Virus record (IMG/VR): IMGVR_UViG_3300042563_000746
Coordinates: 1 to 25,205 of that record
DNA from: a virus
Strand: one strand, 5' to 3'
Length of the DNA: 25,205 bases
Shown: positions 9,910 through 24,158 of the stretch, one piece after another
How positions within the stretch are numbered: position 1 is the stretch's first letter
How the letters are laid out: every line of letters begins with the position of its first letter
Translations under genes and position numbers: made by a program
Notes under the pieces: model-generated
Told to the model about the DNA's origin: nothing
The model's input: only the letters and a program-made list of their open reading frames with translations
Databases searched by the model: none

Positions 9910-9923
9910 TATTGGAGTATATT

Positions 9924-10526
9924 ATGAAAGAATTCATTCCTACCTACTTGTATATAAAACAACACCGTGTCACTGGGTTAAAATACATAGGAAAAACGAT
10001 TAAAAATCCAATCCACTATAAAGGTAGTGGAAAATATTGGTTGCGGCACTTAAAAAAGCATGGGTATATAGTTGACACTATTTGGTATCAATTATATAAT
10101 GATGCCAAATCACTAACAGAAGCAGCAATAAAATTATCACTGGATAATAATATAGTAGAGTCTATTGAATGGGCTAACCAAAAAGCTGAAAATGGACTAG
10201 ACGGTGCATTACCTGGTGAATTGCATCATATGTTCGGGCATACCGGAAATGCACATCCACGATTTGGAACAACGCATTCAGAAAAAACAAAAAAATTAAT
10301 GAGTATTAATCATGCTAATTTCAAGAAAGAAAATCATCCATTATGGAATATAGGACACACTGATGAAACTAAAGAAAAAATGAAAAGAAATCACGCTGAT
10401 GTTTCAGGAACTAATAATCCTATGTATGGAGTTATTCGCGCCCGCATTGAATGTCCACACTGTGGTGAATCAGTAGCTGATGCTTGGCTGAGCAGGCATA
10501 TTAAAAAGGCCCACTCATGTACATAG
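9924..10526 (+). CDS. GIY-YIG homing endonuclease with NUMOD3 repeats and a zinc finger
   Basis: A 200-residue protein. The N-terminal YLYIKQHRVTGLKYIGKT (residues 8-25) is a divergent GIY-YIG core, followed by YKGSGKYWLRHLKKHG with the expected basic residues. Two HxExTKxxM segments, HSEKTKKLM and HTDETKEKM, are NUMOD3 DNA-binding modules, and the C-terminus has a CPHC-x12-H-x4-H zinc-finger pattern. The domain order is nuclease then DNA binding, as in phage Seg/I-TevI-type enzymes. I chose ATG 9924 because TTGGAG at 9912 is a good ribosome site for it. It overlaps the DNA polymerase start by 10 bases, a position typical of free-standing homing endonucleases that target a neighbouring replication gene. 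Confidence 0.85.
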   Translation: MKEFIPTYLYIKQHRVTGLKYIGKTIKNPIHYKGSGKYWLRHLKKHGYIVDTIWYQLYNDAKSLTEAAIKLSLDNNIVESIEWANQKAENGLDGALPGELHHMFGHTGNAHPRFGTTHSEKTKKLMSINHANFKKENHPLWNIGHTDETKEKMKRNHADVSGTNNPMYGVIRARIECPHCGESVADAWLSRHIKKAHSCT

Positions 10527-13228
10527 ATGTTATCTTTAATAAAGACAAAGAAGAACTTTGTGTAGTAGAGCGAGATTCTAAAGGACTACGAAGATTCGTT
10601 AACCATCCAGTAATATACACCATGTATTATCCGGACCGTAAGGGGAAATATAGAACTATATATGGAAATCCAGTTAGTAAATTTACTACCAATAGCAGGA
10701 CTGTATTTGAAAAGGAAAAACGAATACATTCCAATAAACAAGTATTTGAAAGTGATATCAATCCGATCTTTAGATGTTTAAGTGAAAACTATTTAGGGGT
10801 GGCTGCTCCTAAGTTACATACTTGCTTCTTTGACATTGAAACTGATTTCTCTCAAGAAAAGGGATTCTCTCCACCGGAGGATCCCTTTAATAAAGTCACC
10901 GCTATCACGGTGTACTTAGACTGGCTAAATCAACTGGTAACTTTGGTTATAGCACCATCACACATGAGTACAGAAACTTCACATGAAATAGTAAATTCAT
11001 TTGAAAATACAATACTTTTTACTGATGAAAAAGAGATGTTTTCTACTTTTTTTGAACTAATAGAAGATGCTGATGTGCTAAGTGGCTGGAATTCAGGTGG
11101 ATATGATATTCCTTATCTGGTAAATCGTGTCACTCGCATTATGAGCAAAGATGATACACGCCGATTTTGCCTTCAAGGACAATTACCTAAATCTAGACTA
11201 TATACTAAATTTGGGAAAGAACGGGAAACATATGATTTGGTTGGACGAGTCCACATGGACTATCTAGATTTATACACTAAGTATAACTACGAAAGTCGGC
11301 ATAGTTATAAACTTGACACCATTGGTGAAATGGAAGTAGGAGAGAACAAGACTGCGTATGAAGGAACTCTTGATCAATTGTATAACAAGGACTTCAACAA
11401 GTTCATTGAATACAATCGTCAGGATACAATGCTATTGGTAAAGATTCACAATAAACTACAATTCCTGGAACTGGCTAACCAACTGGCACATGAAAACACA
11501 GTCTTATTACCTACCGTTATGGGGTCGGTAGCAATGATTGAAATGGCGATCATGAATGAATCTCATGCTCGCGGTATGGTAGTTCCAGATAAAAAACGAA
11601 AGAGTAAAAATGATGATGAACAACAACAAGCAGCAGGTGCCTATGTTGCTACTCCCAAAAGGGGCATCCATGAATGGGTCGGTGCGACGGACATTAACTC
11701 ACTATACCCCTCAGCTATCCGCGCTCTTAACTTGGCCCCGGAAACCATTGTTGCCCAAGTCAGACAAAACTTAACTGACAAATACATGCTTGAAAAAGGC
11801 ATGAAACTTGCTAAGGATAAAGCTAGACACAAAGAAGGTGATGCCGATGTCACTGGTAGTATTCTTTGGGAAGGACTTTTTGGTAGCTTAGAATATACTG
11901 CAGTAATAAATCAAGATAGAGGAACCATCCTCACTGTTGATTTTGAAGACGGTAGATCAGTTGAGATGAGTGCTGCTGAAATATGGAAATTTGTATTTGA
12001 TAGCAATAATCCATATATGATCAGTGCCAATGGTACTATCTTTACCCATGCACACGAAGGTGTAATTCCAGGATTGTTAACTAAGTGGTATTCTGATAGA
12101 AAAATCATGCAGAAGAAGATGAAAGAGTCTACCACTAGTGAAGACCGTGATTTCTGGGATAAACGACAGCTTGTTAGAAAAATTTTACTCAATTCATGCT
12201 ATGGTGCAATTTTGAATGAGCACTGTAGATTTTATGATAAACGAATTGGACAAAGTGTAACTTTAAGTGGCAGGCAGATTGTTCGTCATATGATGAGCAA
12301 CATCAATGAGTGTATTACTGGTGAATATCAACATGACGGTGCTGCTATCGTATATGGTGATACTGACTCATGTATTTTCTCAGCCTGGCCTATGGTAAAG
12401 GATGAGGTTGCTCTTGGTAAGATGGAATGGAATAAAGAAATTGCAATTGGATTATATGATTCATTAGCAGATCAAGTCAACATTGGATTTCCTGCATTCA
12501 TGGAACAAGCATTTCATTGTCCACGAAAGAATGGTGAAATTATCAAAGCTGGCCGAGAGTATGTTGGTGATCGTGGTATCTTTATTACTAAAAAACGCTA
12601 TGCTATTAATATCTATGATAAAGAAGGAAAGCGTCAGGATAAAGATGGAAAGACTGGATCAATCAAAGCAATGGGTCTTGATTTGAAAAGGGCAGATACG
12701 CCTAAATATATTCAAGAGTTCCTATTAAATGTATTAACTATGGTTCTTGCTGGTACAGGACGAGAAGAGGTTGTTGAAACTATCAAAACTTTCAAAACAG
12801 CCTTATCAAACCAACCAAGTTGGAGTAAAGGTAGTCCAAAATCAGTAAACAATCTTACTATGTATGGTGATAAAGAAGCAAATAGTAAGACTGGCAAAGC
12901 AAATATGCCTGGACATGTTAGAGCAGCATTGAATTGGAATTTTTTACGCAGATTGAATGGTGATAATTACAGTCAAAAAATTGTTGATGGAATGAAAATT
13001 GTTATATGTAAATTAAAGTCTAACCCAATGGGATTTACTTCAGTTGCATATCCAACGGACGAACTACGATTGCCAAAGTGGTTCTGTGAGTTACCGTTTG
13101 ATGATATGTTAATGGAAACTACCCTAGTTGATGATAAGATACAGAATTTACTAGGAGTATTGGATTGGGATTTGATTGGCGATACAAATACCAACACAAC
13201 TTTTGGTGATTTGTTCAGTTTCTCATAA
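10517..13228 (+). CDS. 43: DNA polymerase, family B (T4 gp43-like)
   Basis: A 903-residue replicative polymerase, about the length of T4 gp43. Proofreading motifs: FFDIETDF with D106 and E108 (Exo I), SGWNSGGYDIPYL with D196 (Exo II), EYNRQD with Y298 and D302 (Exo III). Polymerase motifs: TDINSLYPSAI with D391 (A), KILLNSCYG at 554-562 (B), YGDTDS at 612-617 (C), then KKRYAINIYD (KKRY). The last residues TTFGDLFSFS fit the short hydrophobic C-terminal tail by which T4-like polymerases hold the sliding clamp. All catalytic residues are present. The gene has no sigma70 promoter of its own; its start lies inside the homing endonuclease gene, so it depends on transcription from 9523 or 9842. AAGG at about 10505 may be the ribosome site. 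Confidence 0.97.
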   Translation: MYIDVIFNKDKEELCVVERDSKGLRRFVNHPVIYTMYYPDRKGKYRTIYGNPVSKFTTNSRTVFEKEKRIHSNKQVFESDINPIFRCLSENYLGVAAPKLHTCFFDIETDFSQEKGFSPPEDPFNKVTAITVYLDWLNQLVTLVIAPSHMSTETSHEIVNSFENTILFTDEKEMFSTFFELIEDADVLSGWNSGGYDIPYLVNRVTRIMSKDDTRRFCLQGQLPKSRLYTKFGKERETYDLVGRVHMDYLDLYTKYNYESRHSYKLDTIGEMEVGENKTAYEGTLDQLYNKDFNKFIEYNRQDTMLLVKIHNKLQFLELANQLAHENTVLLPTVMGSVAMIEMAIMNESHARGMVVPDKKRKSKNDDEQQQAAGAYVATPKRGIHEWVGATDINSLYPSAIRALNLAPETIVAQVRQNLTDKYMLEKGMKLAKDKARHKEGDADVTGSILWEGLFGSLEYTAVINQDRGTILTVDFEDGRSVEMSAAEIWKFVFDSNNPYMISANGTIFTHAHEGVIPGLLTKWYSDRKIMQKKMKESTTSEDRDFWDKRQLVRKILLNSCYGAILNEHCRFYDKRIGQSVTLSGRQIVRHMMSNINECITGEYQHDGAAIVYGDTDSCIFSAWPMVKDEVALGKMEWNKEIAIGLYDSLADQVNIGFPAFMEQAFHCPRKNGEIIKAGREYVGDRGIFITKKRYAINIYDKEGKRQDKDGKTGSIKAMGLDLKRADTPKYIQEFLLNVLTMVLAGTGREEVVETIKTFKTALSNQPSWSKGSPKSVNNLTMYGDKEANSKTGKANMPGHVRAALNWNFLRRLNGDNYSQKIVDGMKIVICKLKSNPMGFTSVAYPTDELRLPKWFCELPFDDMLMETTLVDDKIQNLLGVLDWDLIGDTNTNTTFGDLFSFS

Positions 13229-13304: not shown

Positions 13305-14036
13305 ATGAAAAGCATCCTACAAAATATTATTGCATATACACATAACCTGGGCTTCATTGATCTAGTAAAGATTACTGGAACTAAAGGTGAGACAGTAATC
13401 AATGCAATTGCAGAAGACCGTAGTGTCATTATTTCTGGGACTTTGAGTGCCCCGTGTTCTGAATTTATTGGCACATTTGGTATGCCAAATTTACAGAAGC
13501 TTAAAACTATCTTATCATTTGATGATTATGATGAGAATTCAAAAATTACAGTTAATAGACGGCTTCGTGATGAGATTGACACTCCTGAATCTATCAGGTT
13601 TGAAACAAATACCAGTGATTTCGTCAATGATTACCGATTGATGCAAAAGGCATTAGTTGAAGAACGCATTAAGAATGTAACCTACAAGGGAACTGGATGG
13701 GATGTTACATTTGAGCCTGAAGTAGCAAATATTATGCGTTTGCGCAAGCAAGCACAAGCTAACAGTGAAGAAAAGACATTTGTTACCAGGTTGGAGAAGG
13801 GTGATCTAAGGATTTATTTTGGAGACCCATCAACTCATAGTGGAAATTTTGTATTTGCAGCAGGAGTAGGTGGTACTTTAACAAGAGATTTGACATGGCC
13901 TGTTAGTCAAGTTCTTAGTATTCTAAGTTTACCTGGAGACAAGATATTTCGCATCAGTGATAAAGGTGCAATAGAAATTGTGGTTGATAGTGGTATGGCA
14001 GTGTATGGATTTTTACTACCAGCACAAACTAAATGA
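13305..14036 (+). CDS. 45: Sliding clamp (T4 gp45-like)
   Basis: A 243-residue protein, slightly longer than T4 gp45 (228). The pattern is that of a phage clamp: an N-terminal helix, then alternating strands (VIISGTLSAPCSEFIGTFGMPNLQKLKTIL at 44-73 resembles the gp45 first-domain helix and strand), an acidic loop DDYDENSKITV, and a second similar half ending with DKGAIEIVVDSGMAVYGFLLPA. Identity to gp45 is low by eye, but position directly after the family B polymerase supports the call. The clamp rings DNA, gives the polymerase processivity and in T4 also activates late promoters. A strong ribosome site AAGGA precedes it, and its last four bases overlap the DpdA start (ATGA). Confidence 0.75.
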   Translation: MKSILQNIIAYTHNLGFIDLVKITGTKGETVINAIAEDRSVIISGTLSAPCSEFIGTFGMPNLQKLKTILSFDDYDENSKITVNRRLRDEIDTPESIRFETNTSDFVNDYRLMQKALVEERIKNVTYKGTGWDVTFEPEVANIMRLRKQAQANSEEKTFVTRLEKGDLRIYFGDPSTHSGNFVFAAGVGGTLTRDLTWPVSQVLSILSLPGDKIFRISDKGAIEIVVDSGMAVYGFLLPAQTK

Positions 14037-15505
14037 GTAATGGAGCAATGGAACGAGTGAATTTATCTGCGCAACAACAACCTGATTGGGCATTGTTCTT
14101 ACCCGCCATTAGCTCTTTTTACATTGCTGGCCTGGGCAAACAAATAAAAGGCGAACAATATTTCCCACAAGCCAGGATACCACAAGGTATTCCTGATCTT
14201 GAATCACTAAACTTCTTGAACAGTACCAAAGGATTGTTTACTTATAAATGGGGTCTGTATAGTGCAGGTCATGCCAACATTGATCCCAATGATCCTGATA
14301 GTAGTGAAACTATTATCCGTGAAAGAGAAGCCGGAACCTTTATGTTAGGTGATAGTGGTGGCTTTCAGATCATGAAGGGGCAATGGCCTGGAGATTGGAA
14401 AGATCCTTCTTGTCCAAAAGCAATGAAAAAGCGTAAAGCTGTCCTTAAATGGATGGATACTTATATGGATTACGGAATGGTGCTTGATGTACCTAGTCAA
14501 ACCGTTCGTAATCAACATCTTTATGACAAACACGGTATCAAAACAATTGGTGATGCAGTTACTGCTACTCATATCAATAATGAATACTTTATCAACAATC
14601 GGACTGGTGAATGTAAGTTTTTGAATGTATTACAAGGACTTACTCATAAACAAAGTGATGAGTGGTATGCTGAAATGAAGGATTATTGTGATCCTATTAA
14701 ATATCCAGGTAACCACTTTAATGGTTGGGCAATGGGTGGACAAAATAAAATTGACATTCATCTTTTTCTTAGACGAATAGTAAATATTATTCATGATGGA
14801 TTGCTTGTGCAGGGCAAGCATGATTGGATTCATTGTCTTGGTACAAGTATTCTAGAATATGCGGTTATCTTCAGTGATGTTCAACGAGCAATCCGCAAAT
14901 ATCATAATCCAGATGTAACTATCAGTTTTGATTGTGCTACTCCATTCTTTGCAGTTTCTAAGGGATTGATATACAACACCACCTTGATGGAACATAATAA
15001 AAAATGGACCTATACTGAAGAAAAAACGGCTGAGAATAAAAAATATGCAACTGATAATCGTAAATTCAAGGATGCTGTATTAGCAGATGCTATTCATAAG
15101 GTATTTTTTGATAGTCCAATTACTGATAAGCTATTGATTAGTGATGTATGTTATCGTGGTGTAGGTTTTCTTGGTCAACATGGTAAAGAAACAAAAACAA
15201 GTTGGGATACATTGTCATATACTTTAATCCAAGCACATAATGTATACAAACATATGTTATCTGTGCAGGATGCTAATCGTAGATATGATAGTGGAATTAT
15301 TCCTAAGATGTTAGTAGATGGATCATTTGATAATGTCAATTGTGCCGAGCTTATAGATGAAATTTTCTCTATCAAGGATAGACAGAAAAGTTTAGATTTG
15401 ATTGATCGTCATAGTAGGTATTGGATGCAAGTAAAAAGTGGTCAAGGATATAGTGGGAAAAAAGCAGTGAACTCTCTCACAATGTTTAATTCTTTATTCG
15501 CATAA
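14033..15505 (+). CDS. dpdA: DpdA-type DNA guanine transglycosylase
   Basis: A 490-residue member of the tRNA-guanine transglycosylase superfamily. LGDSGGFQIM has D107-S-G-G-F-Q, the base-recognition motif; LDVPSQ has D152; GWAMGG (231-236) matches the GGLAVG loop; and ISFDCATPFF has D300, the position of the nucleophile in the DCVMPTR motif of TGT. The CxCxxC zinc site of tRNA enzymes is not visible after D300, and the protein is longer than usual TGT, both fitting the DNA-acting DpdA families. It would swap guanine in DNA for a 7-deazaguanine base, protecting it from host nucleases. It overlaps the clamp gene by 4 bases. Its tail SLTMFNSLFA resembles a clamp-binding motif. The subfamily and the base inserted cannot be read from sequence alone. 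Confidence 0.88.
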   Translation: MSNGAMERVNLSAQQQPDWALFLPAISSFYIAGLGKQIKGEQYFPQARIPQGIPDLESLNFLNSTKGLFTYKWGLYSAGHANIDPNDPDSSETIIREREAGTFMLGDSGGFQIMKGQWPGDWKDPSCPKAMKKRKAVLKWMDTYMDYGMVLDVPSQTVRNQHLYDKHGIKTIGDAVTATHINNEYFINNRTGECKFLNVLQGLTHKQSDEWYAEMKDYCDPIKYPGNHFNGWAMGGQNKIDIHLFLRRIVNIIHDGLLVQGKHDWIHCLGTSILEYAVIFSDVQRAIRKYHNPDVTISFDCATPFFAVSKGLIYNTTLMEHNKKWTYTEEKTAENKKYATDNRKFKDAVLADAIHKVFFDSPITDKLLISDVCYRGVGFLGQHGKETKTSWDTLSYTLIQAHNVYKHMLSVQDANRRYDSGIIPKMLVDGSFDNVNCAELIDEIFSIKDRQKSLDLIDRHSRYWMQVKSGQGYSGKKAVNSLTMFNSLFA

Positions 15506-15531: not shown

Positions 15532-16113
15532 ATGGCAACTATAATAACAACTAAAGGTGCAACTGGAGCTACTGGTGTACCCGGTCCTAAAGGCCCGCCC
15601 GGAAATACTGGGCCTGCCGGAATTGGACTAAAGGGTGCTACTGGTGCTGGAGCCACTGGTGCTAGAGGGCTACCAGGATCACCAGGTGGTGCTACTGGAG
15701 CTACAAGTATAATTCCTGGAGCTACTGGAGCTACTGGTACACAAGGTCCTATCGGTATTACTGGAGCTACTGGCCTATTAGGTGCTACTGGTGTAATGAC
15801 AGAAACGATATATATTAAGGGCAATGCAGGGTCAACCTTTACACCAAATTATAGTCTGGGATCTATCCAATCGTTGACTGCTAATATGAATTTTACATTA
15901 ACAGTCCCAAGTAACATCCCAAATGGTGGGTCATTGACATTGATCATAACTCAGGATGCTACTGGCTCCAGGCTAATGACAGCAAATACTGCATATAAGT
16001 TTGCAGGTGAAGGATTCAAGACTTTGAGTACCGCTGCAAATTCAATTGACATGATGAATATTTTTCGTGCTAGTACAACATATTATGTTACATTAACAAC
16101 AGGGTACAAATAA
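15532..16113 (+). CDS. Collagen-like tail fibre protein
   Basis: A 193-residue protein. MATIITTKG leads into Gly-X-Y repeats (about residues 9-87), mostly GAT and GPx, with one TSIIPG interruption. Residues about 88-193 form a beta-rich C-terminal domain ([20 protein letters not shown], then [24 protein letters not shown]). Phage collagen-like repeats form rigid trimeric shafts, and the C-terminal domain probably nucleates or caps the trimer. The 16784 protein is a clear paralogue in both N- and C-terminal parts. Its stop TAA shares one base with the next ATG (TAATG), so fibre and adhesin are translationally coupled. It was probably transcribed from the late box at 15501. Confidence 0.85.
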
Positions 16114-16784
16114 TGCCAATCGGTGCAACTAGGTTAGGGTATCGTTTTCTGCCTATCCCACCATCAGATGGAAGTGGTCCTCCGAGGCCACAATACTTTA
16201 ATAGTAGTTTTGAAGCCGGAATAAATGGATGGACTGTTATACCAACTCGTATCATATTAGGTACTACTACTATTTTAGGGTATCCTGTTCCCGGCACTGA
16301 GCCAACTCCCGTACAGGTTGTTACTGCGTCAGGTGGGGGGCCCGCCACTTACCTTTCTGCAATAGAACGGATAGATTTAGCATCTGATGGTGGGACTGCT
16401 TGCCTAAAATTATTTAATAACAATTTGCAGACTAGTGTTGCAGGTGCTACGGTGTATGGCCCAGCAGTATATTCAAATGTAGCAGTAATTGCTGAAGTAG
16501 GAGATTCAATAACATATGAATGGAAAGCAGTCTCTGGTGGTGATGCTTATAGATCGATTGCGTATCTTCTTGAAAAGAACACTGGTAGAATTATTATAAT
16601 GTTCACTGCTGCTGGGTTAAGCGTAGATGCTGCCACTGTTTGGCAAAAACAAACCAGAACTTTTGTCGAAGGAGAAGCAGGTGACTATCACTTTGTATTT
16701 GTAAGTGGATCGCAAGATTCTACCAATGGAAAAATACTTGGTGCTAGACTTTTGATTGACAATGTTGCAATAGTGAAAGCATAA
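16113..16784 (+). CDS. Fibre-tip adhesin candidate with carbohydrate-binding-like beta domain
   Basis: A 223-residue protein. The opening [17 protein letters not shown] matches in pattern the start of the 18038 protein (MAFGAARSGFWFLPTT), suggesting a shared docking peptide. Residues from [16 protein letters not shown] (about 28-43) to the end ([16 protein letters not shown]) have the layout of jelly-roll carbohydrate-binding modules, which open with N-x-x-F-E-x-G-x-x-G-W and end with a strand of the form IDNV. It therefore probably binds a host surface glycan. It is coupled by one-base overlaps to fibre genes on both sides (TAATG). No hydrolase residues are evident. The role comes from position and fold guess. 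Confidence 0.65.
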
Positions 16785-18037
16785 TGGTAACAACTGTAAC
16801 AACAAAAGGATCTACCGGTGCAACTGGAGCCACTGGGCTGAAAGGTCCTGCAGGCGTAAGAGGTAATAATGGGGTTGGATTAAAAGGTGCTACTGGGTTG
16901 TCTGGCTTAACTGGTTCTACTGGTCCGTCTGGCCCTTCTGGTGGACCAACCGGAGCTACAGGAGTAGGTTCAACTGGTGCTACAGGTATACAAGGCAATA
17001 TCGGGTCTACTGGTGCAACAAGTATAATTCCTGGATCAACTGGTGCTACAGGTATACAAGGCAATATCGGGTCTACTGGTGCAACAAGTATAATTCCTGG
17101 ATCAACTGGATCAACTGGCGCAACTGGTGCAACTGGTATCGAAGGTAATATCGGGTCTACTGGTGCAACAAGTATAATTCCTGGCGCAACTGGTGCAACT
17201 GGTATCGAAGGTAATATCGGGGCTACTGGTGCAACAAGTATAATTCCTGGTGCTACCGGTATACAAGGCAATATCGGGTCTACTGGTGCAACAAGTATAA
17301 TTCCTGGTTCAACTGGAGCTACTGGTATTCCAGGATCACCAGGTGGTGCTACTGGTTCTACTGGAATTTCATTCATAACTGCTGGTGTTATTGATGGTAA
17401 TTTGATCATAGAACGAAATCATCTAGGCTTCAGTAATGCAGGAGATCCGGGTGGTACTTACATTAATGCAGGATCAGTAATTGGATCAACTGGTCCTAGC
17501 GGTCGTGAAGTTACTTCTGCTGTATATGTAAATGGTCAACTTGGATTTCATAGGGACGATCTTTCCGAGTTTTGGGTACTAGATCCGACTAATTCAGGCG
17601 AACCAGCTATAATAACAGGCCCAGCCGGGGCTACTGGGGCAACAAGTATTATCCCTGGTGCAACTGGTTCCACTGGTGCTACTGGTAGTGGTGCTACTGG
17701 TGCTACTGGTGTAATGACAGAAATGATATATCGTGTTGGTCCTATCGGTCCAATTACTACCTTTACTCCAAATTATAGTCTAGGTTCTATACAAACAATA
17801 ACTGCTAATGTCAATTTTACACTAGCATTACCAATTAATATGCCTAACGGTGGATCAATGGCATTAATAACAACACAAAGTTCAACTGGCAATAAAGTAA
17901 TGACAGCTAATGCAGGATATAAATTTGCAGGATCAGGATTTAAAACTCTAAGTACTTCAGCAAATGCAATTGATATGTTAAATATTTTTCGGGCCGATAG
18001 TACATACTATGTGGCACTAACATTGAGTTATAGGTAA
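16784..18037 (+). CDS. Long collagen-like tail fibre protein
   Basis: A 417-residue paralogue of the 15532 protein. MVTTVTTKG is followed by Gly-X-Y repeats at about 8-195, dominated by GAT and GST triplets, with five copies of a [14 protein letters not shown]-like unit. Residues about 196-277 form a non-collagenous insert ([14 protein letters not shown], then [21 protein letters not shown]), followed by a second short collagen stretch at 278-309 and a C-terminal domain at 310-417 that matches the 15532 C-terminus almost throughout ([37 protein letters not shown]). It is probably a trimeric fibre shaft with a folding or capping domain. Its stop abuts the next adhesin start with no gap. The repeats make its length prone to change by recombination. 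Confidence 0.87.
16992..17307 (+). repeat. Five near-identical 43-base repeats in collagen-like gene
   Basis: A unit running from AAGGCAATATCGGG to ACAAGTATAATTCCTGG starts at 16992, 17058, 17142, 17208 and 17265. Copies differ at very few positions (C/T in AAGGNAATATC, T/G in GGGTCT or GGGGCT). Distances of 66, 84, 66 and 57 bases are all multiples of three, so the reading frame is kept. The shared ATAATTCCTGG block also occurs in the 15532 gene near 15710. Confidence 0.9.
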
Positions 18038-21673: not shown

Positions 21674-22357
21674 ATGTCATTTAATAAAACAAAAACAGAT
21701 CCTGAATTGGGACTACAAGTACACGAATATCTAGTTAAAATGGGAGTTGAGACTCCCACTAATCCTAATGGATTAAATCGTACTGATAAGATTGAAATCA
21801 TTGAAACTCATATGAAGAAAATCATGGAGACTCTAGGATTAGACTTATCCGATGATAGTTTAACAGAAACTCCAAAGCGTGTTGCTAAAATGTATGTCAA
21901 TGAAATATTTTGGGGGCTTGATTATGAATCATTCCCAAAATGTACAACAGTTGATAACAAGATGAAATACAACGAAATGGTTGTAGAACGAAATGTTAAT
22001 GTTCAAAGCAATTGCGAACATCATTTTGTAATCATTGATGGTCTTGCTACAGTTGGATATGTTCCCAAAGATAAAGTATTGGGCCTAAGTAAAATCAATA
22101 GAATTGTAGAGTATTTTAGTAAGCGTCCTCAAATTCAAGAACGATTGACTGAACAGATTTTCCATACATTACAATTCATTCTAGATACAGAAGATGTTGC
22201 GGTAATGATTGATGCTAGACATTACTGTGTAGCCTCCCGTGGGGTAGAGGATACAGGTAGTTCTACTGTTACTACACGATTGGGTGGTGGATTCAAAACT
22301 GACATGGCCGCCCGTAATGAATTCTATCAAATAGCTAGACAAGGTTGTGCAAGATGA
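21674..22357 (+). CDS. folE: GTP cyclohydrolase I
   Basis: A 227-residue enzyme converting GTP to 7,8-dihydroneopterin triphosphate, the first step of 7-deazaguanine synthesis. TETPKRVAKMY (64-74) is the family N-terminal motif; SNCEHHFVIIDG has C114 and H117, and ARHYCVASRGVED has H183 and C185, so the zinc ligands Cys-His-Cys and the catalytic His are present. GLSKINRIVEYFSKRPQIQERLTEQI is nearly a textbook FolE core. Length matches bacterial enzymes. AAGGAAGG precedes the ATG. The stop overlaps a 47-codon gene by four bases, which in turn overlaps queD, so the three are translationally coupled. In a phage with dpdA this enzyme supplies pterin for DNA modification more likely than for folate. 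Confidence 0.96.
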   Translation: MSFNKTKTDPELGLQVHEYLVKMGVETPTNPNGLNRTDKIEIIETHMKKIMETLGLDLSDDSLTETPKRVAKMYVNEIFWGLDYESFPKCTTVDNKMKYNEMVVERNVNVQSNCEHHFVIIDGLATVGYVPKDKVLGLSKINRIVEYFSKRPQIQERLTEQIFHTLQFILDTEDVAVMIDARHYCVASRGVEDTGSSTVTTRLGGGFKTDMAARNEFYQIARQGCAR

Positions 22358-22497
22358 TTAATATCCTACTTATAATAATTATTATTGCAATTATCATCGC
22401 TATTATTAGATTGACTCCAGTGAGTAAAAAATCTATGTATTGCACTGGTAATTGTGAACAAGGTCGTAAATGTGACTGTAAGCAGGATACATTATGA
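22354..22497 (+). CDS. 47-residue membrane peptide with four-cysteine tail
   Basis: A short gene linked at both ends by ATGA overlaps, to folE at its start and to queD at its stop. The product has one hydrophobic helix (residues about 4-18, nearly all Ile/Leu/Ala), a short basic link, then YCTGNCEQGRKCDC, with four Cys in the pattern C-x3-C-x5-C-x-C that could bind zinc or an iron-sulfur centre. The exact double coupling is strong evidence that it is translated. I do not recognise a function. Possibilities are a metal-binding membrane peptide serving the metal-dependent FolE/QueD/QueE enzymes, or an unrelated exclusion or takeover peptide. Confidence 0.75.
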   Translation: MINILLIIIIIAIIIAIIRLTPVSKKSMYCTGNCEQGRKCDCKQDTL

Positions 22498-22970
22498 AAT
22501 ACCTATCAACTAAAGAGTATTCAAACATTGCCCCAGTAGCATATAGACAATGGCGGGCCGATAGTCATTGCAATAAAATTCACGGATATGCGCTATCATT
22601 TAAGTTTGAATTTGAATGTGATGAACTTGATGTAAGAAACTGGGCAATGGATTATGGTGGTCTTAAACCACTCAAATCCTTCCTTAAAGAACATTTTGAT
22701 CATGTGTTACTATTAGCTCAAGATGATCCTAACTATGCTGATATCAAACGATTAGGTGATCTAGGATTAGCCAAAATAACCGAAGTTGAAAAGACAGGGT
22801 GTGAAGGCTTGGCTGATTACCTTTACAAGTATGTGAATGGAATCTTTCTTCCTGACTATGGTAAATCAGAAGCTGATAGATTGTGGTGTTGCAAAGTAGA
22901 AGTAAGAGAAACTCCTAGCAATATGGCAATGCGTATGGGACATAGAGAAGACAACGAAGAGTTGTTTTAA
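22494..22970 (+). CDS. queD: QueD-like 6-carboxy-tetrahydropterin synthase with altered zinc site
   Basis: A 158-residue T-fold protein, longer than usual QueD (about 120). QueD turns dihydroneopterin triphosphate into 6-carboxy-tetrahydropterin. Retained: the catalytic Cys and its spacing C26-x3-H30-G, the FDH pair (D69, H70) and the VRET segment with E139. Changed: the third zinc His of the usual HGH is Tyr (H30-G-Y32), and the usual AAHR near the N-terminus reads VAYR (Y17), so two of three expected zinc His appear to be Tyr. H25, next to the catalytic Cys, could compensate. An insert of about 25 residues lies at about 80-104. Its place behind folE supports pathway membership, but altered chemistry is possible. 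Confidence 0.8.
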   Translation: MKYLSTKEYSNIAPVAYRQWRADSHCNKIHGYALSFKFEFECDELDVRNWAMDYGGLKPLKSFLKEHFDHVLLLAQDDPNYADIKRLGDLGLAKITEVEKTGCEGLADYLYKYVNGIFLPDYGKSEADRLWCCKVEVRETPSNMAMRMGHREDNEELF

Positions 22971-23026: not shown

Positions 23027-23299
23027 ATGAATAAACAAACCCAAGAAGTAATGTCAATTCTGGCAGAAGAATGTGCTGAAGTTATTCAAGCTATTTCTAA
23101 GTGCCAACGATTTGGTATTGACAATTTAAAGCCTGGTAAACCAAAAACTAACAGAGAACATCTTGAAGAAGAGATTGGTGATCTATTGGCTATGGTAGAT
23201 ATCCTACATGAATTAGACATTGTTTCATGGACTAATCTTGATGAGGCCAAGGACGCTAAGATTGAAAAATTGAAGAAGTGGTCAACAATTTATGAGTAA
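23027..23299 (+). CDS. MazG-like NTP pyrophosphohydrolase
   Basis: A 90-residue all-alpha NTP-PPase. EECAEVIQAISKCQRFG (E14, E15, E18) and HLEEEIGDLLAMVDIL supply the ExxE and ExxD Mg-binding motifs of the MazG fold. Such enzymes hydrolyse nucleoside triphosphates to monophosphate and pyrophosphate. I chose ATG 23027 because GTGAGG at 23015 is its ribosome site. It overlaps queE by 8 bases. It could clean up non-canonical nucleotides, alter the host nucleotide or alarmone pool, or favour modified DNA synthesis; its coupling to queE hints at the last, without proof. Confidence 0.85.
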   Translation: MNKQTQEVMSILAEECAEVIQAISKCQRFGIDNLKPGKPKTNREHLEEEIGDLLAMVDILHELDIVSWTNLDEAKDAKIEKLKKWSTIYE

Positions 23300-24158
23300 A
23301 ATTAAAGTAAGCGAACTGTTTTATAGTATCCAAGGAGAAGGCCGTTTCATGGGAGTACCAAGTGTATTCCTAAGAACTTTTGGATGCAATTTCACTTGTG
23401 GTGGATTTGGTATGCCTCGCGGTGAATTAAGTCAAGAGCGTATCAAAGTTGCCGCATTAGATGCCTTCGGTCCATACTCTAATTACAAAGAACTACCACT
23501 TGTGAGTACAGGTTGTGACAGTTATGCATCCTGGGATCCTGCATTCAAGCATCTTAGTCCTATGCTTGACACTAACACTATTGCTGATAGCATTTGTGAA
23601 ATGTTGCCCTTCAAGGAGTGGCGTGATGAACATTTAGTTATCACGGGTGGAGAACCATTATTGGGGTGGCAACGGGCTTACCCAGATTTGATTGAGCATC
23701 CAAAGATGAGTGGGCTAAATGAAATTACATTTGAGACTAATGGAACTCAGCCGTTAACTGACGAATTTACCAAGTACCTACAGACATGGAATCAACGCCA
23801 ATATCCGCATGGTCCTGGTGGAGAAATTACATTTTCAGTCAGTCCTAAACTACCCTGTAGTGGTGAGAAATGGGAAGATGCTATCTGTACTGACATTGTA
23901 CGCAGTTATGAAAATATTGGATATGCTTATCTAAAATTTGTAGTTGCTACTGAAGAAGATGCACAAGATGCCTTGAAGGCTACTGCTGAATACAGAGCCG
24001 CAGGGTTTAAAGGTCCTGTTTATCTAATGCCAGTTGGAGGTACATCAGACTCATACTTCATGAATAATCGTTCAGTTGCAGAACTGGCTATGAAAAATGG
24101 ATTAAGATACAGTGCTAGACTTCAGGTCGATCTTTGGAAAAATAACTGGGGTACTTAA
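23292..24158 (+). CDS. queE: QueE 7-carboxy-7-deazaguanine synthase (radical SAM) with unusual Cys spacing
   Basis: A 288-residue enzyme that rearranges 6-carboxy-tetrahydropterin to 7-carboxy-7-deazaguanine (CDG) using SAM and a 4Fe-4S cluster. LFYSIQGEGRFMGVPSVFLRT (the last residue at 29 precedes the cluster) is the QueE signature, TGGEPLL the SAM-binding loop, and FETNGTQ and SVSPKL later family motifs. Cysteines are C32 and C36 (C-x3-C), but the residue at the normal third position is F39. The GCDSYASW segment that normally carries the third Cys appears at C75, so the motif is C-x3-C-x38-C with a long insert. It overlaps mazG-like by 8 bases. The enzyme class is firm from the flanking motifs; whether the distant Cys completes the cluster is inferred. 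Confidence 0.92.
   Translation: MSKIKVSELFYSIQGEGRFMGVPSVFLRTFGCNFTCGGFGMPRGELSQERIKVAALDAFGPYSNYKELPLVSTGCDSYASWDPAFKHLSPMLDTNTIADSICEMLPFKEWRDEHLVITGGEPLLGWQRAYPDLIEHPKMSGLNEITFETNGTQPLTDEFTKYLQTWNQRQYPHGPGGEITFSVSPKLPCSGEKWEDAICTDIVRSYENIGYAYLKFVVATEEDAQDALKATAEYRAAGFKGPVYLMPVGGTSDSYFMNNRSVAELAMKNGLRYSARLQVDLWKNNWGT

Follow-up and report, generated by a model that had tools for sequence, protein, structure and literature searches.

A polymerase-like, predicted clamp-binding tail on a phage DpdA-like transglycosylase encoded beside a sliding clamp gene

The window analysed in this study is a stretch of viral DNA of 25,205 bases, which is an entire virus record in itself (IMG/VR record IMGVR_UViG_3300042563_000746). 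The genes for a family B DNA polymerase, a sliding clamp and a DpdA-like protein lie in this order on the plus strand, and the interval 13305-15505 takes in both the clamp gene and dpdA. The features were as follows.

10517 to 13228, plus strand: family B DNA polymerase, 903 amino acids (Pfam DNA_pol_B, E 3e-42; phrog_262, E 3e-198)
13196 to 13225, plus strand: C-terminal tail of the polymerase, TTFGDLFSFS, predicted to bind the clamp (tail type as in relatives)
13305 to 14036, plus strand: sliding clamp gene of PCNA/gp45-type fold, 243 amino acids (phrog_12062; predicted structures of relatives)
14033 to 14036, plus strand: ATGA overlap of the clamp stop and the dpdA start (from the sequence)
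14033 to 15505, plus strand: dpdA-like gene, 490 amino acids, TGT-fold 7-deazaguanine transglycosylase, action on DNA predicted
15470 to 15502, plus strand: C-terminal tail of DpdA, NSLTMFNSLFA, with the predicted clamp-binding motif FNSLF at 15485 to 15499
21674 to 22357, plus strand: folE-like GTP cyclohydrolase I, preQ0 pathway (PF01227, E 1e-61)
22494 to 22970, plus strand: queD-like PTPS, preQ0 pathway (PF01242, E 2e-15; phrog_2389)
23292 to 24158, plus strand: queE-like radical SAM protein, preQ0 pathway (phrog_2076, E 2e-54)

No queC was seen in this 25 kb fragment, though folE, queD and queE are present. The genes 3' of dpdA (15532-18037) carry collagen-like Gly-X-Y repeats (GATGATG and so on), and a Lys-rich ORF directly 5' of the polymerase (9912-10526) is of homing-endonuclease type in appearance. 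The phage Paride has an annotated homing endonuclease flanked on either side by a DNA polymerase gene.

By sequence, the 243-residue ORF belongs to phrog_12062, a family of "unknown function" that carries no family name. PDB sequence searches with the clamp and DpdA profiles found no relative, and fold comparison succeeded for the clamp. The predicted structures of clamp relatives (about 60% identity) matched PCNA, with Foldseek E values of about 1e-10 for a model fused to DpdA and 4e-11 for the clamp alone. The top matches of the clamp model (E 4e-11) were filled by PCNA chains, with a TM of about 0.6-0.7 depending on the target. Because of these matches of its relatives, the ORF was assigned as a PCNA/gp45-type clamp. 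An earlier note, made from the sequence alone, had named a gp45-like clamp gene beside dpdA; its fold is indeed PCNA-like by prediction, although the sequence family is unnamed. The clamp was modelled as a monomer, and a ring of three protomers was assumed from the PCNA/gp45 fold. By this assignment phrog_12062, so far a large group of phage proteins without a name, gains a function as sliding clamps.

The 490-residue protein had no match of its own in Pfam, NCBIfam or PHROGs at E<=0.001. The NCBIfam DpdA model NF041059 was matched by one of 23 family members (E 9e-5), but not by the window protein itself. Furthermore, a BFVD fold search with a 71%-identical relative fused to its clamp gave the tRNA guanine transglycosylase of Achromobacter phage Motura (E 8e-12). 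In the alignment of 23 diverse members, D107, S108, G109, G110 and Q112 of the DSGGFQ motif were invariant, the F of this motif was conserved in at least 90%, and D152 and D300 were also invariant. We take these conserved residues, in the DSGGFQ motif and elsewhere, to include the catalytic ones. Given the DSGGFQ motif, the NCBIfam match among relatives, the TGT fold match and the preQ0 genes of the window (folE, queD and queE), DpdA is the best name for the protein, and its action on DNA is inferred.

The DpdA protein ends in ...KKAVNSLTMFNSLFA, i.e. NSLTMFNSLFA, and the polymerase of the same window in ...TNTNTTFGDLFSFS, i.e. TTFGDLFSFS. The tail of the RB69 polymerase is SLFDMFDF. A scoring matrix made from polymerase tails only was applied to every ORF end. 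The DpdA tail scored 13.4 bits and ranked second of the 34 window ORFs, behind the polymerase, while the next ORF reached 3.6 bits; the resemblance to clamp-binding polymerase tails, which the earlier note had pointed out, was thus borne out. With the same matrix, the DpdA tail ranked 2/334, 1/100, 1/55 and 2/70 in four related records. It was third in record G002 and in Paride when the last 45 residues were scanned, and fourth of 513 ORFs in Vibrio phage 2.275.O.

The gene order and the motif were then compared over 160 related loci, comprising 80 close relatives (66-100% identity) and 80 loci with about 35% identity to the Vibrio DpdA. The second set was found by an alignment query, after the Paride and Vibrio DpdAs, each scanned as a single sequence, had given no match. 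In each of the 156 loci whose contig was long enough to assess (78 per set), the same strand carried the clamp gene just upstream of dpdA, at a distance of no more than about 1.5 kb, and the order polB-clamp-dpdA was kept down to about 30% DpdA identity. The four-base overlap that the earlier note had described is present, as the ORFs 13305-14036 and 14033-15505 share the ATGA. As evidence of coupling it was rejected, because relatives that retain the motif have clamp-dpdA spacings anywhere between -4 and about 1,000 bp. In loci L066 (2384-2411) and L006 (1355-1390), the clamp gene and dpdA share a reading frame, interrupted only by stop codons and a few other codons, so that read-through would yield a clamp-DpdA fusion. 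About 360 bp separate the two genes in many near-identical phages (loci L044-L067), and this stretch is missing in L066.

Counting only the C-terminal 50 residues, 46 of the 62 DpdA representatives and 24 of 907 other ORFs had the pattern [FY]xx[LF]F (Fisher p 4e-47), some of the latter being polymerases or a DpdA fragment. Shuffled DpdA tails gave a mean of 1.6/62. The second F of the motif was conserved in at least 90% of the 23 diverse DpdAs. Twelve of the 62 representatives had no motif by the pattern used; several of these carried variants (NLFDF, SFFEE, FNKHF), and L164, L206 and L227 seemed to have none at all. Judged from the sequences of these relatives, it is unlikely that the resemblance arose by chance.

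In the 80 close relatives, the motif stands at the same alignment position, and most of these proteins then extend by 20-35 acidic residues, closing with another conserved block, for example EDSDDAINEVLE. A naked C-terminal motif is exceptional, being found in the window and a few others (L002, L028, L033, L075 and L076). The second set of loci gave the same picture. The earlier note had held that the tether would be refuted if related DpdA proteins beside a clamp gene ended differently. Taken literally this is what was found, since most relatives add the acidic residues; the extension does not refute the tether, because the position of the motif is unchanged. Moreover, where the usual motif had decayed, a new polymerase-like C-terminus was found (NPDLFSIS at the end of L019, NPLFSFGG at the end of L047, and NEDLFSE in L014).

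Several further observations were made on such ends. The acidic linker and second terminal block (EDSDDAINEVLE, NPDDDELRALEE) follow the motif in most large DpdAs, for example L057, L072, L183 and L224, and the window DpdA has lost this block. The gene next after dpdA in locus L084 (7615-8727; gene 469 of Vibrio phage 2.275.O) encodes an N-terminus of the same motif type, MFNELFDFND. Candidate clamp partners with the polymerase-like ends NFDDFFSVEI, NPDFFSFPE and GESLFEFV were noted at 146576-147370 and 213315-213824 of MG592671 and at 225901-227271 of record G002.

The DpdA motif also resembled the polymerase tail of the same phage. The sequence NTFGSLFSF is found on polymerase and DpdA alike in L224. 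In Vibrio phage 2.275.O, the polymerase ends in TDLFDW and DpdA in NDLFGW; in L161 and L168, the ends are FFEF and NEFFEF, and in L201 they are FDDLFEL and FHNLFE. The Paride polymerase ends in FDSLFGW, and its DpdA has an internal FNSLFDV. Polymerase and DpdA covaried at the fourth position of the motif, which is Leu or Phe, with five FF, no FL, one LF and 44 LL pairs (p=2.8e-6, not corrected for kinship). On the polymerase tree, Phe at this position needs five changes, and DpdA also has Phe in three of about four such lineages; L028 and L169 have Phe in DpdA without Phe in the polymerase. Many of the sequences are related, and the covariation amounts to about three independent lineages. The p values therefore overstate independence. 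Among the clamp columns searched for covariation with the Leu/Phe switch, window position 35 came out best, but it was not exclusive, Val being present in 82% of the F-type phages and in 15% of the L-type ones, and no conclusion rests on it.

For structure prediction with AlphaFold2, the clamp and DpdA of L006 were joined as one chain through the in-frame stops, with 51 further rows in the alignment. Both domains were well folded. The DpdA tail, from residue 718 onward, had pLDDT <50 except for residues 729-735, and part of it (residues 724-737 of the fusion) was predicted to be helical. No docking of the tail on the clamp was obtained in this model, for which the alignment was shallow and the interdomain linker short. 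Packing of the tail inside the DpdA fold, which the earlier note had named as a finding that would refute the tether, was not seen with confidence either; with pLDDT <50 from residue 718, the tail is neither confidently packed nor docked. In a second model, the last 15 residues of the L009 polymerase were read through into the clamp gene. This relative's polymerase tail, STFDDLFSFG, joined to its own clamp had pLDDT >50 at residues 4-16 (block means 67 and 64 including the low ends), the linker being <50, and formed a PIP-like turn at residues 8-11 followed by a strand at 12-14. In the AlphaFold2 model the polymerase tail thus seems to lie on the clamp in the PIP style; the pocket is inferred, and contacts were not read from coordinates.

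A second group of DpdA proteins was found to behave in a similar way. CAjan and 9g had been considered as clean negative controls, which was wrong, as they form a second positive group instead. Their classical dpdA adjoins a beta-type clamp gene (Pfam PF02767, E 1.7e-4, below its cut-off), and the proteins end in RVMELF (CAjan) and LQDLFDE (9g). In an alignment of seven classical DpdAs, the final LF was invariant after a divergent linker. A beta-clamp-like gene was near the classical dpdA in 75 of 77 IMG/VR loci. Furthermore, [LMI][FY] followed by at most two residues was found at 52 of 55 distinct classical DpdA ends, compared with 10 of 964 other ORFs of the same loci, and Qx[LMI][FY] at 38 of 55 compared with 1 of 964. 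The consensus of the classical ends was a terminal Q[E/Q]LF. The bacterial beta-clamp consensus is QL(S/D)LF (PMC9690074), and the classical end was regarded as a variant of it, because in most cases one residue fewer separates the Gln from the Phe. The DpdA of Streptococcus phage Dp-1 ends in RQRRLF, and dnaN lies about 620 bp downstream.

DpdAs without a clamp neighbour were also compared. Six DpdAs near a ParB-like gene and not near a clamp (Brownie5, Sour, Finch, phi3ST:2, Mufasa8 and Nadezda) had no such C-terminal motif. In the loci L332-L336 and L248, from actinobacterial and Cellulophaga phages, a tail-less DpdA gene was beside a ParB-like nuclease-domain gene or one small ORF from it; this protein is perhaps another recruiter of tail-less DpdA. 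The DpdA2 of the T4-like phage nt-1 has no clamp-like tail, and its gene lies about 20 kb from that of the polymerase, which ends in LESFFG. In Phosso, dpdA is far from the clamp and the protein ends in VEGLF, an ambiguous case. For cultured phages, the comparison of DpdA C-termini with and without an adjacent clamp gene, which the earlier note had proposed, came out in favour of its idea, as the motif was found in 11/11 compared with 0/7 clear cases (Fisher p 3e-5, or 1.6e-4 when Phosso is counted as having a tail, kinship being ignored).

The best explanation is a tether between DpdA and the replicative clamp, with the enzyme modifying DNA behind the fork. We consider this likely; the binding is inferred and has not been shown. 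In this sense, comparison strongly supports the earlier note, which had proposed a modifying enzyme that would ride on the clamp. It is improbable, though possible, that the motif binds a replisome component other than the clamp, such as the clamp loader, the polymerase or a single-strand binding protein. The model gave no docking between DpdA and the clamp, and the second acidic block that follows the motif in many relatives may bind something else. However, the polymerase tail, with the same motif, gave the PIP-like turn and strand when joined to the clamp, tails of this type bind gp45 in the T4 system (PMC2988020, PMC7892883), and two DpdA families with two motif types each stand beside the matching clamp class.

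Still less probable is that the tail is a structural element of DpdA, capping its fold or a dimer interface, with a likeness to the polymerase by chance and a gene order that reflects only a replication module. The partly helical prediction and the conservation of the second F would fit such a role. In contrast, the low pLDDT of the tail, the tracking of the same phage's polymerase tail and a motif that moves (internal, terminal, lost and regained) speak against it, as do the invariant LF end of the unrelated CAjan-type DpdA and the lack of a tail on DpdAs without a clamp neighbour. Least probable is an ordinary tRNA-guanine transglycosylase, or an enzyme with another non-DNA substrate, beside the clamp gene incidentally: the protein has the TGT fold and no direct family-model match, and DNA as substrate is untested for this subfamily, but a clamp-binding tail makes little sense on a tRNA enzyme, preQ0 genes are in the window, and 7-deazaguanines occur in the DNA of CAjan and Dp-1, whose LF-ended DpdAs are encoded next to a clamp (PMC6884629).

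According to the tether to the clamp, the short linear motif in the flexible C-terminal tail of DpdA (FNSLF in the window) would hold the enzyme on the replicative clamp of the phage, filling the same hydrophobic pocket of a clamp protomer as the polymerase tail TTFGDLFSFS. The assumed three-protomer ring could hold polymerase and DpdA together. DpdA would then be carried on the newly made duplex and, behind the fork, would replace guanine with preQ0 or one of its derivatives. It is inferred that DpdA and the clamp bind each other, that the two tails share a pocket, that modification is coupled to replication and that DNA is the substrate of this DpdA. In this phage and hundreds of relatives, the DpdA tail probably copies the clamp tail of the polymerase, and the DNA is probably modified while it is copied. 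That two unrelated DpdA families follow the same rule with two clamp classes (PCNA/gp45-type and beta-type) was unexpected. With somewhat less assurance, we lean towards the view that most phage 7-deazaguanine DNA transglycosylases are parts of the replisome, at least two DpdA families independently carrying tails matched to their own clamp class, while DpdAs without an adjacent clamp are tail-less and six small ones lie near a ParB-like protein, a possible other recruiter.

The level of modification does not simply follow the tail. It was 28% of G in Rosebush, 1.7% in Dp-1 and low in nt-1 (PMC6884629); Dp-1 is tailed and nt-1 tail-less. Rosebush belongs to the same genus as the tail-less Brownie5, which means that heavy modification does not in general require a clamp tail. 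It is not yet understood how DpdA chooses guanines or at what stage of replication it works. For both DpdA families beside a clamp, a tether would offer a simple answer, with modification following the fork, ahead of restriction enzymes. The contact is predicted to lie in the final few residues of DpdA, and the tether can therefore be tested directly in the laboratory phage CAjan. In addition, the polymerase-like tail offers a rule for finding further clamp partners in jumbo phages. No report of a clamp-tethered DpdA was found in the literature on DpdA with clamp or processivity, subscription journals being mostly outside the coverage, and neither the main DpdA paper nor the MED16 paper mentions a clamp. 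Clamp-tethered modifying enzymes are already known; for DpdA the tether is apparently new, as far as could be found.

Among the known systems, the T4 alpha-glucosyltransferase is a phage DNA-modifying enzyme that binds the sliding clamp of its phage, as is inferred for DpdA, and modification during replication has been proposed for it. It co-purifies with gp45 in pull-down (PMC13216743; contact also in Sommer 2004), and this contact does not set the 60:40 ratio, or share, of alpha-glucosylation in T4 (PMC13216743). Unlike DpdA, it adds a sugar to 5-hmC and exchanges no base. Dnmt1 modifies new DNA and likewise carries a short motif for the clamp; it binds PCNA by a PIP motif, according to work cited in PMC9690074. 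Unlike DpdA, it is an unrelated enzyme of eukaryotic maintenance methylation. The DpdA proteins of CAjan, 9g and Dp-1 (PMC6884629) are likewise TGT-fold enzymes beside preQ0 genes, and their clamp gene neighbour and LF end were found in the present analysis. 7-Deazaguanines are present in the DNA of CAjan and Dp-1 and are lost in CAjan delta-dpdA (PMC6884629). These proteins differ from the window protein in their length of about 310 residues, in belonging to another DpdA family, in the beta-type clamp neighbour and in the terminal Q[E/Q]LF in place of FxxLF[S/D]F. The tails of T4/RB69 gp43, gp55 and gp33 are, as is predicted of the window DpdA tail, hydrophobic-acidic C-terminal motifs on a flexible linker, which dock on the hydrophobic patch of gp45 (PMC2988020, PMC7892883). 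In T4 these tails are interchangeable, and a fused gp55-gp33 is functional with the gp55 motif in an internal position (PMC2988020). Their bearers are a polymerase and transcription factors, whereas here the motif is carried by a modifying enzyme.
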